NCBI GenBank assembly: GCA_902586925.1
Contig: CACIJE010000001.1
Span: 458,104-522,103 of the forward strand
DNA length: 64,000 nt
Source: an uncultured SAR86 cluster bacterium
GTDB taxonomy: Bacteria > Pseudomonadota > Gammaproteobacteria > Magnimaribacterales > D2472
Direction: 5' to 3'
The position numbers and the translations under genes are program-made. The notes under the pieces were generated by a model. That model had not been told where the DNA came from. It did not search any database and saw only the letters and a program-made list of their open reading frames with translations. Position 1 is the stretch's first letter. Each line of letters begins with the position of its first letter. This document shows, piece after piece, positions 20,407 to 63,466 of this stretch.

Positions 20407-22560
20407 TTAGAAATTATTTGCAACTGACGACATAGTAAAATCCAATTTTTCTTTCCTTTCTGCTTTATTTGGAGCTTCACCAAGTTTACCACCCTCTTTA
20501 GCTAGTTTTAGTAGCATATCACTTGGTTTATAGACATCATTTCCTGTGATTTCCCTATATTTTTCAAGTTTTTCGATTACTTTATCCAGTCCCATAGCAT
20601 TTGCATGGTGCATTGGACCGCCTCGCCATATCGGGAAGCCATAACCATTTATGTACACCACATCTATATCTGCAGCTCTTTGAGCTACTCCTTCAGATAA
20701 AATATCAGCACCTTCGTTTATTAGAGCTAAAATACATCTATCTACAATTTCTTCGTCTGATATTTCTCTTCTTGTAAAGCCATTCTCAGAAGATATCTTT
20801 TTATATGTTTCTTCATTTTCAGGAGCTGGATTAGGAGCTCTCGAGCCTTCTGAATAATTATAATATCCTGCTTTACTTTTTTGACCATATCTATTTTGTT
20901 CGCAGAGCTCGTCACCTATTTTTGCATGAAGTGGAGATTCTTTACCGCTAAGTTTTCTTGCTCTCCAACCTAAGTCTAAACCAACAAGATCCATCATTCT
21001 GAATGGACCCATGTTTAATCCAAAAGACTCAAGTGCCTGATCAACTTGATGAGGTAGGGCACCTTCAAGTAGTAACATATTTGCTTGAGCTGTGTACCCA
21101 AATAACATTCTATTTCCAATAAATCCAGGTGCATTCAAAGATACCACAGCAGCTTTCCTAAGTTTTTTACCAATGGCCATAACAGTTGCTAATGTTTCAT
21201 CTGATGTTTGCTTTCCTCGAACAACTTCAAGTAGCCTCATTATATTAGCAGGACTAAAAAAGTGAGTACCCACTACTAATTCAGGCCTATTTGTTACCGA
21301 TGCTATGGAATCTATGTCCAAACCAGAAGTATTACTTGCTAATATCGCTCCTTTCTTAACTATTTCATCTAATGATTTGAAAATTTCATGTTTTAATTCT
21401 AAATTTTCATAAACTGCCTCTATGACAATATCGCAATCAGATAAATCTTTATAATCTAAACCTGTAGATATAGATCCAAAAATTGTCTCTTTTTGTTCAG
21501 ATGTAAGGCGACCTCTATTAACCATAAAGTCATAATTTTTTTCAATAACTGAAATACCCCTGTCAAGATTTTCCTGGTCTTGATCAATAATATGAACAGG
21601 TATTCCTGCATTCGCAAAACACATAGCAATTCCGCCACCCATTGTTCCTGAACCAATAATTCCAGCTTTATTAATGTCCATGATTTTTGTATCTTTTGAC
21701 ACATCTGAAATTTTTGAGGCTGCTCTTTCTCCAAAAAAGATATGAATCATTGCTTCTCTCTGAGGATGAACTAAACATTCAAGAAAATAATCTCCTTCTT
21801 TCTTAAGTCCTTCATCAAAATCATCAATATTTATAGCAGCTTCTACGCATTTAATTATTTGTCCAGGCGCAAACTGGCCTTTTCTTCCTTTAGCAGCCAT
21901 TGCTTGCGCTTCGAGTAGTACTTTATCGTTTCCTCTAGCTTCAATCATTTTTTCATTAAAATCCCTAACTTTTGGGTGACTTTCAGTACTTTTTGCTTTT
22001 TCTTTTATAAATTCTATTGATTCAGCGACTATATCATCAGCAATATTATCAATTATGCCTAAATCTAAGGCTTGTTTTGCTGAAACATGTGATCCAGTTA
22101 ACATCATTTTTAATGCTTCAGCCGGTCCTGCCAGTCTTGGTAGTCTTTGTGTACCACCACCACCTGGCAGAAGTCCTAGATTAACCTCTGGAAGACCTAC
22201 AAATGCAGTTTTGCTCGCAATTCTGTAATTACAACATAATGCAGTTTCTAGACCACCACCCAAAGCAATTCCATTTATAGCTGCGACTATTGGTTTTTTG
22301 CAGAATTCTAACTTTTTAAAGACATCATTTAAGCTTATTCCTTCAACATTTCCACCAAATTCTGATATGTCTGCACCGGCAATAAAAGCCCTACCATTAC
22401 CTGTCAATACAACAGCGTCGATAGAATCATCATCTTCAACTTTAGTTATACATTCATATAAACCAGTTCTTACACCATCACTTAGTGGATTAACAGGGGG
22501 GTTATCTACAGTTAAAATAGCAACGTTTTCCTGTACTTCGTATAAAACAGTACCTTTCAA
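20407..22560 (-). CDS. Bifunctional enoyl-CoA hydratase/3-hydroxyacyl-CoA dehydrogenase (FadJ/FadB-like)
   Basis: VDNPPVNPLSDGVRTGL; GRAFIAGADISEF; ALGGGLE; GSGTMGGGIAMCFANAGI; NTSGLDI; GTHFFSPANIMRLLEVV. Confidence 0.93.
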   Translation of the reverse strand: MKGTVLYEVQENVAILTVDNPPVNPLSDGVRTGLYECITKVEDDDSIDAVVLTGNGRAFIAGADISEFGGNVEGISLNDVFKKLEFCKKPIVAAINGIALGGGLETALCCNYRIASKTAFVGLPEVNLGLLPGGGGTQRLPRLAGPAEALKMMLTGSHVSAKQALDLGIIDNIADDIVAESIEFIKEKAKSTESHPKVRDFNEKMIEARGNDKVLLEAQAMAAKGRKGQFAPGQIIKCVEAAINIDDFDEGLKKEGDYFLECLVHPQREAMIHIFFGERAASKISDVSKDTKIMDINKAGIIGSGTMGGGIAMCFANAGIPVHIIDQDQENLDRGISVIEKNYDFMVNRGRLTSEQKETIFGSISTGLDYKDLSDCDIVIEAVYENLELKHEIFKSLDEIVKKGAILASNTSGLDIDSIASVTNRPELVVGTHFFSPANIMRLLEVVRGKQTSDETLATVMAIGKKLRKAAVVSLNAPGFIGNRMLFGYTAQANMLLLEGALPHQVDQALESFGLNMGPFRMMDLVGLDLGWRARKLSGKESPLHAKIGDELCEQNRYGQKSKAGYYNYSEGSRAPNPAPENEETYKKISSENGFTRREISDEEIVDRCILALINEGADILSEGVAQRAADIDVVYINGYGFPIWRGGPMHHANAMGLDKVIEKLEKYREITGNDVYKPSDMLLKLAKEGGKLGEAPNKAERKEKLDFTMSSVANNF

Positions 22561-22631: not shown

Positions 22632-22659
22632 TTGATAATTAATTATAACTATATATAAT
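22632..22659 (+). promoter_or_regulatory. Putative sigma-70 promoter: TTGATA-N16-TATAAT
   Basis: -35 TTGATA 22632-22637, -10 TATAAT 22654-22659, predicted start ~22666 just before the hairpin leader. Confidence 0.65.
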
Positions 22660-22665
22660 AATACA

Positions 22666-22740
22666 AGTCAGCACTCCTCTCCCCTATTATATTTTGCTGA
22701 CACTCTGGAATAAATGGAGGGCTTTGTCCCTCCATATCTT
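22666..22740 (+). ncRNA. Unannotated structured RNA leader: two perfect 7-bp hairpins (candidate sRNA/riboswitch/attenuator)
   Basis: GTCAGCA(22667-22673)/TGCTGAC(22695-22701) with pyrimidine-rich 21-nt loop; TGGAGGG(22715-22721)/CCCTCCA(22728-22734) followed by TATCTTTT. GC-rich island in AT-rich intergenic DNA. Confidence 0.55.
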
Positions 22741-22759
22741 TTAAGCGAGGTGTACTTTA

Positions 22760-22846
22760 ATGAATAAATATAAAGATAATATCGAAATTATTTTCCTTAT
22801 ATGCATTTTTATTTCATCATTATCCGCTATTACGCCTTTAACATAA
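22760..22846 (+). CDS. Putative 28-aa single-TM small protein MNKYKDNIEIIFLICIFISSLSAITPLT
   Basis: ATG preceded by GAGGTG Shine-Dalgarno with 7-nt spacing; hydrophobic core; preceded by strong promoter and structured leader; below ORF-track cutoff. Confidence 0.55.
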   Translation: MNKYKDNIEIIFLICIFISSLSAITPLT

Positions 22847-22863
22847 GTTAAAATACAGCTTCA

Positions 22864-23388
22864 ATGAAATACTTTAACTTTTTGCCTATTTTTTTTCTTT
22901 CAGCTTATACATTATCATGCTCAGATCTATTGGACACAGAGATAAGAGTTTTGGATTCTAGCGAAACTGTTAATTTATGCGAATATACTGATCATGTTGT
23001 TCTTGTTGTAAATGTTGCAAGCAGATGCGGCTACACTTATCAATATTCTTCACTTCAAAAATTATATGAGAGCTATAAGGAAAATGACTTTGTAGTTCTT
23101 GGAGTACCTTCACGTGACTTTATGCAAGAATATTCTAACGAAGGTGATGTTGCAGAATTTTGTTCAACAGAATATGGTGTTGATTTTCCAATGTTTGCCA
23201 CATCAAAAGTAAGAGGGCAAAAAGCAAGTCCTCTTTATAAAAAGCTAATTGCACAATCTGGAGTTTCTCCAAAGTGGAATTTTAATAAGTATTTAATTTC
23301 AAGAGAGGGCAAAGTGGTCTCAACATATGGATCAAGCGTTAAACCAGACTCAATTGAATTAATTTCTAAAATAGAAGAGCTTTTATAG
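22864..23388 (+). CDS. Glutathione peroxidase family protein, predicted lipoprotein/exported
   Basis: VVNVASRCGYTYQYSSLQKLYESY; KWNFNKYLISREGKVVSTYGSSVKP; N-term signal with LSCS lipobox-like. Confidence 0.93.
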   Translation: MKYFNFLPIFFLSAYTLSCSDLLDTEIRVLDSSETVNLCEYTDHVVLVVNVASRCGYTYQYSSLQKLYESYKENDFVVLGVPSRDFMQEYSNEGDVAEFCSTEYGVDFPMFATSKVRGQKASPLYKKLIAQSGVSPKWNFNKYLISREGKVVSTYGSSVKPDSIELISKIEELL

Positions 23389-27930: not shown

Positions 27931-28521
27931 TCAGTCATATGAAAGTACACGAGATTCAGTAATAACCACATCATATTTTATATCATGACTTCTACCAAAA
28001 CATTTATCTAAAATCTGGAAGTCATATCCTAGTCCAACAAAGAGAGGCCTGTCTTTTTCAGATTTTAATTTTTCAAGTGTTCTGTCAAAAAAACCACCTC
28101 CATATCCTAACCTATATCCATTCTTATCTACCCCTACAAAAGGTATGAACATAGTATTTAGCATTTTAGGATCGATGTAATTTTCGTTTACAGCTTCTTT
28201 TATACCGTATTTATTTTTTTTTAGAGACTCACCATCTTTATATATATTGAATCTCAATTTATTTTTAGAAACTATTTTAGGCATGAATATATTATTAGAG
28301 TGCTTTTTTAACTCACTTAGTATTTGATCTATCGCAATCTCGTTTTTATACGGAAAATAAAGAAGGGTATTTTTAGAAGACTTAACATCGATTTCATTCA
28401 ATACATTTTTTTGAATGTTATAGTTTAATTCTTCAATATCACTTTTAGATAGAAGTTGCCCCTGCTTAAAAAGTGATTTTCTGATTATATTTTTCACCAT
28501 AATTATTGCAGAGGCTAACAA
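27931..28521 (-). CDS. fthC: 5-formyltetrahydrofolate cyclo-ligase
   Basis: IIRKSLFKQGQLLSKSDIEE; FIPFVGVDKNGYRLGYGGGFFDRTLE; ygfA position next to 6S RNA and zapA. Confidence 0.92.
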   Translation of the reverse strand: MLASAIIMVKNIIRKSLFKQGQLLSKSDIEELNYNIQKNVLNEIDVKSSKNTLLYFPYKNEIAIDQILSELKKHSNNIFMPKIVSKNKLRFNIYKDGESLKKNKYGIKEAVNENYIDPKMLNTMFIPFVGVDKNGYRLGYGGGFFDRTLEKLKSEKDRPLFVGLGYDFQILDKCFGRSHDIKYDVVITESRVLSYD

Positions 28522-28690
28522 ACCAGGTCACCGCTATGTGTTATACCTGAACCGAAAGTTCAGGTGGTGAACATCTTGTCAGATCAGGCTTCCCATTATG
28601 GTAATGCTCAACAATGACAGTGGAAAATCACCTATTTTTTAGTATCGGTTCAAATTTATTAACACATTAGCAAATGAACCAGAATGTATT
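28513..28690 (-). ncRNA. ssrS: 6S RNA
   Basis: Minus-strand reading has TTGAACCGATACTA...TTGTTGAGCATTACCATAATGGGAAGCC...GTTCACCACCTGAACTTTCGGTTCAGGTATAACACATAGCGG, matching the organisation of enterobacterial 6S; conserved locus between zapA and fthC. Ends approximate. Confidence 0.85.
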
Positions 28691-58258: not shown

Positions 58259-58337
58259 TGGTGGGCCTGGGAAGACTCGAACTTCCGACCTCTCGATTAT
58301 CAGTCGAACGCTCTAACCAAAACTGAGCTACAGGCCC
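58259..58337 (-). tRNA. tRNA-Ile (anticodon GAT), encoded CCA
   Basis: Minus strand GGGCCTGTAGCTCAGTTTTGGTTAGAGCGTTCGACTGATAATCGAGAGGTCGGAAGTTCGAGTCTTCCCAGGCCCACCA; full cloverleaf, anticodon loop CTGATAA. Confidence 0.96.
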
Positions 58338-61219: not shown

Positions 61220-61284
61220 AAAATATATTTTTCTTTATTAAGTTACTTCTAAATTGTTAAAATATTTATTAAGATATTATTTAG

Positions 61285-61366
61285 ATGCAAAGGGGTGGCA
61301 TTTTTGCCTGAGATCTTTTGAAACTCTTTGAACCTGATCAACACAATAGTTGCGGAGGAATTGCAT
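61285..61366 (+). promoter_or_regulatory. TPP (thiamin pyrophosphate, THI-box) riboswitch
   Basis: ATGCAA-AGGGGTGGCATTTTTGCCTGAGATC...TTTGAACCTGATCAACACAATAGTTGCGGAGGAA-TTGCAT; hallmark GGGGTG, CTGAGA, ACCTGATC and GCGNAGGA elements with closing P1 ATGCAA/TTGCAT. Confidence 0.92.
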
Positions 61367-63466
61367 ATGTATGTCAGTAACAAATTTTTATTTTTATTGC
61401 CCGTATTGTTTTCACTTATTGTCTTTTCACAAGACATTGAAGAAATAATTGTTAAAGGTGAGTATCGAGAAAAATCTATCAGTGAGGAAGATTCAAGTAT
61501 TTTTATTATTCAGTCTGAAAAAATTAAGTCACAAGCTATAAAACATTTTCAGCAACTTTCGTATCTTGTACCAAATTTAAATTATGCAGCCTCAGATTCG
61601 AGAGCAAGATATTTTCAAATACGAGGTATTGGAGAAAGATCTGGTTATCAGGGAACACCAAATTCTTCGGTTGGATTTCTTATCGATGACATTGACTATT
61701 CCGGTCAGGGAGGCATTGCAACTTTATTTGATGTTGATCAAGTTGAAGTATTTCGTGGACCCCAAGGTTCTAGAACAGGCGCTAATGCTTTAGCAGGATT
61801 AATTTATATAAAGACTAAAGATCCAACAGATAAATTTGAAGGAACTTCCGAACTAACTCTTGGAGATTATGGAACTCAAAACATTGGAGTTGCGTTTGGA
61901 GGACCATTAAAGAATAAAAAAATGAAATATCGATTAGTAATGAGAACTGACTATGCTGATGGATTTAGAAAAAATATTTACTTGAATAAATCAGATACTT
62001 CAAAAAAAGATGAGCTAACTTTGCGTTACAAACTTGATTGGGAAATTGATGAAACTACAAATATAAATTTTCTTGTTTCAAAAGTTGATATGGATGACCC
62101 AGCTGATATTTGGACAATTGATGGAAGTTTAAATACTTTATCAGATCGTCCTGGAATGGATTCACAAATAACAGACTCGATTCGAATAAAAGTAACTAAG
62201 AATTTAAATAATTTTGATATGCAAAGTTTAACAAGTTCAACAAAAACTGATGTTGTTTTCAGTTATGATGCAGATTGGGGCAATCCTGACTCACATTATC
62301 CATATACCTATGATTATTTTTCTGAAACATTAAGAAAAAGAGATACTTTTAGTCAAGAAATTCGTTTTTTGTCAAAAAATAAGGATTTTTCTCAAAATAA
62401 TCCATTTGAATGGGTCTTTGGTTTCGATTTCAGTAAATTAGATGAATCAAATGTAACCAAAGATGATGGGATTTATGGAGATCCGTCTGATCCATTTGGT
62501 CCATATGCAAGTGAATCTTTAATTTCAAGAAATTATAAATCTGAAAATTTATCAGTTTTCGGAAATATTGATTATTTTTTAACAAATAAAATTAAACTTG
62601 CTTTCGGTTTGAGATTGGAAAATTGGGATTCAAAATACAAAGATTCAAATAATGAATCTTTTAGTCCTTCAGATAATATGAGTGGTGGAAAAATTTCACT
62701 AGTCAAAAAAACCAATGATGATTCAAATATTTATTTTTCAATAGCAAGAGGATATAAACAAGGTGGATTTAATTTAGGTCTTGATGCTACAGATAACTTA
62801 GTGAAACAATCTCTTATTTACGATCCTGAATATTTAACTAATTACGAATTGGGTTTAAGTTCTTACTTAAAAGATAGCGATCTAAATTATTCACTTGTAA
62901 TATTTTTCTCTGAAAGAAAAGATCAACAAGTTTTAATATCTAGACAAGTTGATCCAAGTGATCCTAATACTTTTTCATATTTAACTCAGAATGCTGCAGA
63001 GGGAGAGAACTATGGGATTGAAATTACTTCAAATTATTTATTAACAAATAATTTATATATATATGCTAATTTAGGTTTTCTTAAAACAAAGATAAAAAAT
63101 TGGGAATCAAGAATTGATCTAGAAGACAGATCACAAGCTCACGCACCTGAGAGATCATATTCTGTAGGTGGAAATTTAAATTTCAAAAATAACTACTATT
63201 TAAAATTAGATATTAATGGAAAAAGTAGTTTTTATTATTCAGATTCACATGATAATCAGTCTAAAAGCTATCAATTAACTAACTTAACTTTTGGATATAC
63301 AAATGCTAATTTTTCTGTTGATCTGTGGATAAGAAATTTGTTTAATAAATACTATTCAACAAGAGGATTTTTCTTTGGAAATGAAGCGCCAAATTTTATT
63401 GATACTCTATATAGAAGACAAGGAGATCCTAAGCATATTGGCATATCACTTAGATATAATTTTTAA
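61367..63466 (+). CDS. TonB-dependent outer-membrane receptor, predicted thiamin(-related) uptake
   Basis: Plug domain (NYAASDSRARYFQIRGIGERSGYQGTPNSSVGFLIDDIDYSGQGG...VDQVEVFRGPQGSRTGANALAGLIYIKTKDP) and barrel ending SLRYNF; under TPP riboswitch. Start at 61367. Confidence 0.93.
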   Translation: MYVSNKFLFLLPVLFSLIVFSQDIEEIIVKGEYREKSISEEDSSIFIIQSEKIKSQAIKHFQQLSYLVPNLNYAASDSRARYFQIRGIGERSGYQGTPNSSVGFLIDDIDYSGQGGIATLFDVDQVEVFRGPQGSRTGANALAGLIYIKTKDPTDKFEGTSELTLGDYGTQNIGVAFGGPLKNKKMKYRLVMRTDYADGFRKNIYLNKSDTSKKDELTLRYKLDWEIDETTNINFLVSKVDMDDPADIWTIDGSLNTLSDRPGMDSQITDSIRIKVTKNLNNFDMQSLTSSTKTDVVFSYDADWGNPDSHYPYTYDYFSETLRKRDTFSQEIRFLSKNKDFSQNNPFEWVFGFDFSKLDESNVTKDDGIYGDPSDPFGPYASESLISRNYKSENLSVFGNIDYFLTNKIKLAFGLRLENWDSKYKDSNNESFSPSDNMSGGKISLVKKTNDDSNIYFSIARGYKQGGFNLGLDATDNLVKQSLIYDPEYLTNYELGLSSYLKDSDLNYSLVIFFSERKDQQVLISRQVDPSDPNTFSYLTQNAAEGENYGIEITSNYLLTNNLYIYANLGFLKTKIKNWESRIDLEDRSQAHAPERSYSVGGNLNFKNNYYLKLDINGKSSFYYSDSHDNQSKSYQLTNLTFGYTNANFSVDLWIRNLFNKYYSTRGFFFGNEAPNFIDTLYRRQGDPKHIGISLRYNF

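Follow-up and report, generated by a model that had tools for sequence, protein, structure and literature searches.

What is encoded between a divergent fadJ-like gene (enoyl-CoA hydratase/3-hydroxyacyl-CoA dehydrogenase; positions 20407 to 22560, minus strand) and a glutathione peroxidase gene (gpx; 22864 to 23388, plus strand) in the genome of an uncultured SAR86 cluster bacterium? A sequence-only reading of the window, i.e., the whole 64,000-nucleotide stretch analyzed here, had proposed an unannotated unit made of a near-consensus promoter, a two-stem leader, and a 28-codon open reading frame (ORF) for a small membrane protein or for a leader peptide controlling gpx. To our knowledge, hardly any base-pairing small RNAs (sRNAs) have been described in uncultured ocean bacteria with streamlined genomes, in which few regulators are left. 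A full-text search of the literature collection used here found no study of an sRNA in SAR86, and the RNA upstream of gpx is previously undescribed. The comparative data led us to a reading that we hold with a probability of roughly three in four: the interval specifies a trans-acting sRNA and, after it in one unit, the genes for a membrane mini-protein and glutathione peroxidase, and the sRNA loop would block ribosome entry on the mRNA of a 72-amino-acid (aa) membrane protein encoded elsewhere.

Results

A conserved two-hairpin RNA upstream of gpx

The unit opens with the promoter TTGATA-N16-TATAAT (22632 to 22659, within a feature extending to 22660; plus strand, like all elements that follow), which lies where the sequence-only reading had placed it, matches the consensus at 11 of 12 positions, and is conserved. 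Since sigma-70-like matches alone occur at chance level in the region (5 found versus 4.6 expected), the promoter is significant by virtue of its conservation and not of the match itself. Transcription is predicted to start 7 nt past the −10 box, at 22666, and to yield an sRNA of ~76 nt (22666 to 22742) whose end was placed from the terminator hairpin. The 5′ hairpin (22667 to 22701) has a 7-bp stem, GTCAGCA (22667 to 22673) with TGCTGAC (22695 to 22701), and a 21-nt loop that contains the invariant C-rich stretch CUCUCCCC-UAUUA and displays the seed CUCUCCCCUAUUA (22677 to 22689). The second hairpin (22714 to 22742) pairs TGGAGGG (22715 to 22721) with CCCTCCA (22728 to 22734) and carries a TCTTTT tail (22737 to 22742), which makes it a probable intrinsic terminator, a trait that the sequence-only reading had missed. 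It is the sole terminator-like site in the region (one found by scanning versus 0.1 expected in shuffles). The T-tract is weak in the window's genus (UCUUUU) and strong in family f4 (GGGGCTTCGGCCCC-AAACTTTTTTT); being short, it may terminate transcription inefficiently in the former. Folding gave z-scores of −3.5 (22667 to 22860) and −3.2 (the 77-nt RNA by itself), and none of 200 dinucleotide shuffles did as well.

Scanning of the whole window with Rfam returned nothing at gathering score besides a 6S RNA (28516 to 28688, minus strand), a tRNA (58262 to 58337, minus strand), and a TPP riboswitch (61281 to 61377, plus strand). Sub-threshold matches in the interval were at chance level, and no covariance model of a known cis-regulatory leader matched there.

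The interval is single copy in its own 1.18-Mb genome, and a DNA search of 60 relatives recovered it in 36. Thirty same-genus loci retain every component, from the promoter through both stems and the loop to the ORF. In their oriented alignment, near-constant sequence covers the promoter, all of stem 1, stem 2, the linker ACTCTGGAA, and the 5′ half of the loop (CTCCTCTCCCC-TATTA), and the flanks of the interval vary freely. Of the order's 204 genomes, a covariance model (R1) built from 28 sequences matched 118, namely nearly all of family f1 (12 genera) and 18 f4 genomes, plus 5 f3 matches. The f4 matches score only 27 to 34 bits; the four inspected have the same promoter type on the 5′ side and the mini-ORF and gpx on the 3′ side. 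The f3 matches (27 to 31 bits) proved false in both genomes inspected (L108 and L109), where just a terminator between unrelated genes matched and the promoter element was absent. Antisense matches within some loci reflected the palindromic terminator and were left out of the final alignment. Class-level R1 matches outside the order, three in number (27 to 34 bits), are unproven; the one at G488:C1:1437956-1438025, in another family, scores 34.4 bits.

The sequence-only proposal of a real unannotated unit is thus borne out by its conservation across f1 and f4: promoter, two-hairpin RNA, and ORF are kept in most of f1 and in f4, always upstream of gpx, whose position relative to the RNA is preserved in both families, and the fadJ-like gene is the constant neighbor throughout f1. 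Both stems proposed from the sequence also hold. Stem 1 is invariant within the genus; comparison across genera shows covariation, with two-sided changes at 6 of its 7 pairs. Compensatory two-sided changes affect 14 of 16 pairs when 29 diverse copies are aligned to the model (shuffles, 5.3; slid controls, 0 to 4), an alignment biased toward that model, and 6 of 16 pairs (shuffles, 1.5) in a structure-blind MAFFT alignment independent of it.

RNA paralogues in three genera (g2, g3, and g17) share promoter type, loop, and terminator hairpin with the gpx-linked copy but lack both the ORF and gpx. They lie beside apt (L034, g2), adjoin a tRNA and apt (L036, g3), have no ORF after them on their own strand (L101 and L102, g17), or are divergent from an alternative oxidase (AOX) gene (L103, g17). 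Such copies indicate that the RNA is a gene in its own right, more than a leader.

A coding mini-ORF and the terminal peroxidase gene

Downstream of the RNA, the Shine-Dalgarno (SD)-like GAGGTG (22747 to 22752) precedes the 28-codon ORF (22760 to 22846; MNKYKDNIEIIFLICIFISSLSAITPLT), whose product carries the C-terminal motif (S)AITP(I/L)x. In relatives, AAAGG or GAGG usually occupies the place of this SD. Across 21 distinct sequences, pS is 0.67 and pN 0.145 (pN/pS, 0.22; the two alternative frames give 1.5 and 2.5), with 16, 11, and 27 variable sites at codon positions 1, 2, and 3, respectively. Judged from this substitution pattern, the ORF is a genuine gene under purifying selection, with a one-helix membrane mini-protein as the predicted product. 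In the remaining f1 genera, gpx is preceded by homologues of 25 to 33 aa with C termini such as AITPx, AISPxV, and VAPxV, and f4 has a relative (...GISPNG) located after, or overlapping, that place 5′ of gpx. In two f4 loci (L105 and L107), the RNA and the AITP-type mini-protein are separated by an extra ORF of 34 to 35 aa (MKEYMNN...YLIGEIYVV and MSKHISD...YLIGLSIS). Comparison of the mini-protein with Pfam and NCBIfam profiles yielded no family above chance. The locus adds a conserved 28-aa membrane protein outside known families. The last gene of the unit encodes a protein of the GSHPx fold (PF00255, E = 9.7e-27) with a signal- or lipoprotein-like stretch at its N terminus.

A promoter element common to the RNA and pseudoazurin

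The promoter is embedded in a conserved element, TTGATAAT-NN-ATTATAA-NTA-NN-TATAATA (22632 to 22660), in which an imperfect inverted repeat spanning the spacer and −35 region is combined with the −10 box. The element TTGATAWTNNATTATAANTANNTATAATA has two to three relevant sites per f1 genome, i.e., the RNA unit, pseudoazurin, and any stand-alone RNA copies. Control patterns gave zero to one site, and the few additional element matches with three mismatches look like chance. The 29-bp element common to the pseudoazurin promoter is found in the window's own genome (G000:C3:42465, L055) and at L053 and L057; at L053, AOX is the next gene after pseudoazurin (one genome). In genus g1, a serine-hydrolase-like gene is divergent from pseudoazurin. 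These sites suggest that the element defines a small regulon of respiratory or oxidative flavor. A Fur/PerR-type operator was considered and set aside, since the spacer is 2 nt instead of 1, and no regulator is named.

Coevolution of the loop with a distant ribosome-binding site

Every called gene of the near-complete genomes G016 (1,231 genes) and G034 (1,239 genes) was ranked by the longest contiguous pairing of its 5′ region with the loop. A gene for a 72-aa small membrane protein came first in G016 with 13 contiguous bp (runner-up, 11) and second in G034 with 12, between proteorhodopsin (13) and a GcvT-family gene (10). In the window's own genome, CUCUCCCCUAUUA is complementary over 13 contiguous bp (one G-U) to UAAUAGGGGGGAG, where ribosomes would bind the mRNA of the 72-aa protein (G000:C1:691241); across the genomes searched for this protein, the site marks the ribosome-binding region, 5 to 9 nt before the ATG. 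GGGGG is rare before genes (7 to 9 of ~1,230), and a noncoding GGGGGAG/GGGGGGA precedes orthologous called genes in both G016 and G034 only at the 72-aa gene (12 to 13 nt before the ATG) and proteorhodopsin (44 to 46 nt). When 31 genomes were searched for the 72-aa protein and proteorhodopsin, 29 encoded the former, a two-helix membrane protein of 72 to 75 aa, and a second, divergent copy of it lies ~290 nt downstream. Its loci (L241, at G000:C1:691241-691722, L232, L239, L244, and others) have the conserved 5′ untranslated region ACATAAATAAACCTAATAGGGGGGAG, and searches of Pfam, NCBIfam, and PHROGs gave the protein no convincing match.

Loop and site also change together in their flanks, which read UAUUA/UAAUA in g1, g2, and g17, UAUG/CAUA in g14, g16, and g18, UAUUU/AAAUA in g15, and CCCCCAUGA/UCAUGGGGG in the f4 genome G038. 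In a permutation test over 13 genus-level units, which controls genus relatedness only partly, the loop/target score was 45 versus 26.1 ± 4.2, with none of 20,000 permutations as good; P was 0.0007 for f1 alone and 0.0065 for distinct combinations. Flank pairing is broken in g13, in the f4 genome G041, and in G018 (g1). Among the tested genomes of families without the RNA, those of f2 lack the G-run in the 72-aa leader and the f3 genome G037 lacks the gene. Because RNA and target are unrelated in sequence, shared descent of one sequence cannot yield their covariation. Duplex energy was rejected as sole evidence for a target, since shuffled C-rich seeds score nearly as well (mean, −34.5; best, −44.7) as the top pair (−40.1). 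The locus displays two hallmarks of a trans-encoded sRNA: conserved structure with compensatory changes and an unpaired seed complementary to, and conserved with, mRNAs from distant loci. The conserved promoter element and the terminator-like hairpin, whose T-tract is weak in the window's genus and strong in f4, may provide a start and a stop of its own. The sRNA loop has coevolved with the ribosome-binding site of the 72-aa gene, and the RNA very likely switches that gene, perhaps together with proteorhodopsin, down.

Proteorhodopsin and a GcvT-family gene as further candidate targets

Proteorhodopsin is a probable second target in part of f1, as suggested by its leader: GGGGGAG lies 44 to 46 nt before the ATG in G016 and G034, and runs of the GGGGGA type occur in g1, g2, g12, g14, g16, and g17 and are absent from g3, g13, g15, g18, and the f2 and f3 genomes. 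In f4, GGGGGA is the SD itself. The match in the window's own genome is weak (9 contiguous bp, −17.1 kcal/mol). Proteorhodopsin leaders of the window's genus (L268, 1400 to 1510, minus strand; L262 to L282) contain GGGGGGAGUAA...ACUCC-type hairpins, whose CUCC arm could instead pair with the AAGGAGU SD, a possible translational switch.

The GcvT-family gene, which from its sequence we take to be DMSP-demethylase-like (DmdA-like), has an AGGGG(G) ribosome-binding site that could pair with the core of the sRNA loop in 8 of 11 genomes (G008, G016, G034, G124, G130, G134, G152, and G161); the site is absent in the window's own genome. We treat this gene as a lead, a possible third target.

Discussion

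Several features of the locus would also suit a cis-acting attenuator or riboswitch-like leader, in which transcription of the mini-ORF and gpx would be gated by hairpin 1, acting either as a sensor or through pairing of its loop with the GGAGGG arm in hairpin 2: the terminator-like hairpin 2 lies 17 nt before the ORF, leaving no space for a further promoter, the order promoter-RNA-ORF-gpx is kept across families, and a weak loop pairing with the GGAGGG arm is feasible. We nevertheless consider this arrangement unlikely, as the stand-alone copies have nothing to attenuate, the loop nucleotides outside the C-run track a distant gene, which a cis element would not need, and the two hairpins remain separate in minimum-free-energy folding. 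The two roles suggested by the sequence-only reading fare differently. The small membrane protein stands as a real gene, whereas a leader peptide or RNA devoted to gpx control finds no support, given copies lacking gpx, a loop that covaries with a distant gene, and a stem 2 that looks like the terminator of the RNA itself.

That the RNA is a mere untranslated leader of the mini-protein/Gpx mRNA, its stems acting as stability elements, seems highly improbable given the paralogues without the ORF, the invariant loop, and the loop/target covariation, even though the ORF is conserved, coding, and always beside the RNA at the gpx locus. Equally little credit is due to a general anti-SD decoy or ribosome-binding element devoid of a specific target. 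The loop does include CUCCU, resembling the 16S anti-SD, and many strong-SD genes score moderately; against this, GGGGG is rare before genes, and the match runs 4 to 5 nt past the SD and covaries there.

In the trans-acting sRNA model that we favor, the dedicated promoter element would start transcription at ~22666, and the second hairpin would probably stop most transcripts at 22742, releasing the ~76-nt RNA with its C-rich loop displayed by hairpin 1. Pairing of this loop with UAAUAGGGGGGAG on the mRNA of the 72-aa two-helix membrane protein would block ribosome entry. The same loop probably pairs with the G-rich proteorhodopsin leader and possibly with that of the GcvT-family gene. Read-through past hairpin 2 would supply Gpx as well as the mini-protein. 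Given that pseudoazurin shares the promoter element and that Gpx is part of the unit, induction most likely responds to a respiratory, redox, or oxidative signal. A broader and far more tentative, indeed doubtful, extension is that one order-specific sRNA serves streamlined marine bacteria as a posttranscriptional switch between light-driven membrane energetics and an oxidative or respiratory backup. The element inducing RNA, mini-protein, Gpx, pseudoazurin, and in places AOX would at once lower proteorhodopsin along with an abundant small membrane protein; DMSP demethylation might fall as well. Our literature search on SAR86 with proteorhodopsin and AOX retrieved nothing relevant. Comparative data from more than 100 genomes now supply the RNA, its seed, its main predicted target, and candidate regulation of proteorhodopsin, opening the regulation of phototrophy in proteorhodopsin-bearing small-genome cells to direct tests in metatranscriptomes or a surrogate host.

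Transcription units that deliver both a base-pairing RNA and a small protein are exemplified by SgrS/SgrT, where a single RNA carries the ORF on the 5′ side of the pairing region. In the unit described here, by contrast, the RNA and the ORF are set apart by a terminator-like hairpin, and the ORF is succeeded by a complete enzyme gene.

The RoxS/RsaE sRNAs of Bacillus and Staphylococcus, which are under redox/NO regulators, pair with SD sequences through C-rich regions (PMC8216469). The new RNA resembles them in the predicted pairing of its C-rich loop with an SD and in its redox-linked promoter set. No sequence or genomic relation was evident. No RoxS/RsaE match reached the Rfam gathering score, and none of the best sub-threshold matches in the interval was to that family; moreover, the new RNA has one 7-bp hairpin plus a terminator, heads a mini-protein/gpx unit, and is predicted to target membrane proteins. 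The stress-defense sRNAs CcsR1-4 of Rhodobacter (alphaproteobacterial CIN1 loci) are cotranscribed with the small protein CcaF1, a 71-aa DUF1127 RNA-binding protein encoded before them (PMC10253847). The SAR86 unit has no adjacent DUF1127 protein, its mini-protein having no Pfam match and its neighbors being fadJ and gpx; it differs from CcsR/CcaF1 in its promoter element and in that its 28-aa membrane protein comes after the RNA.
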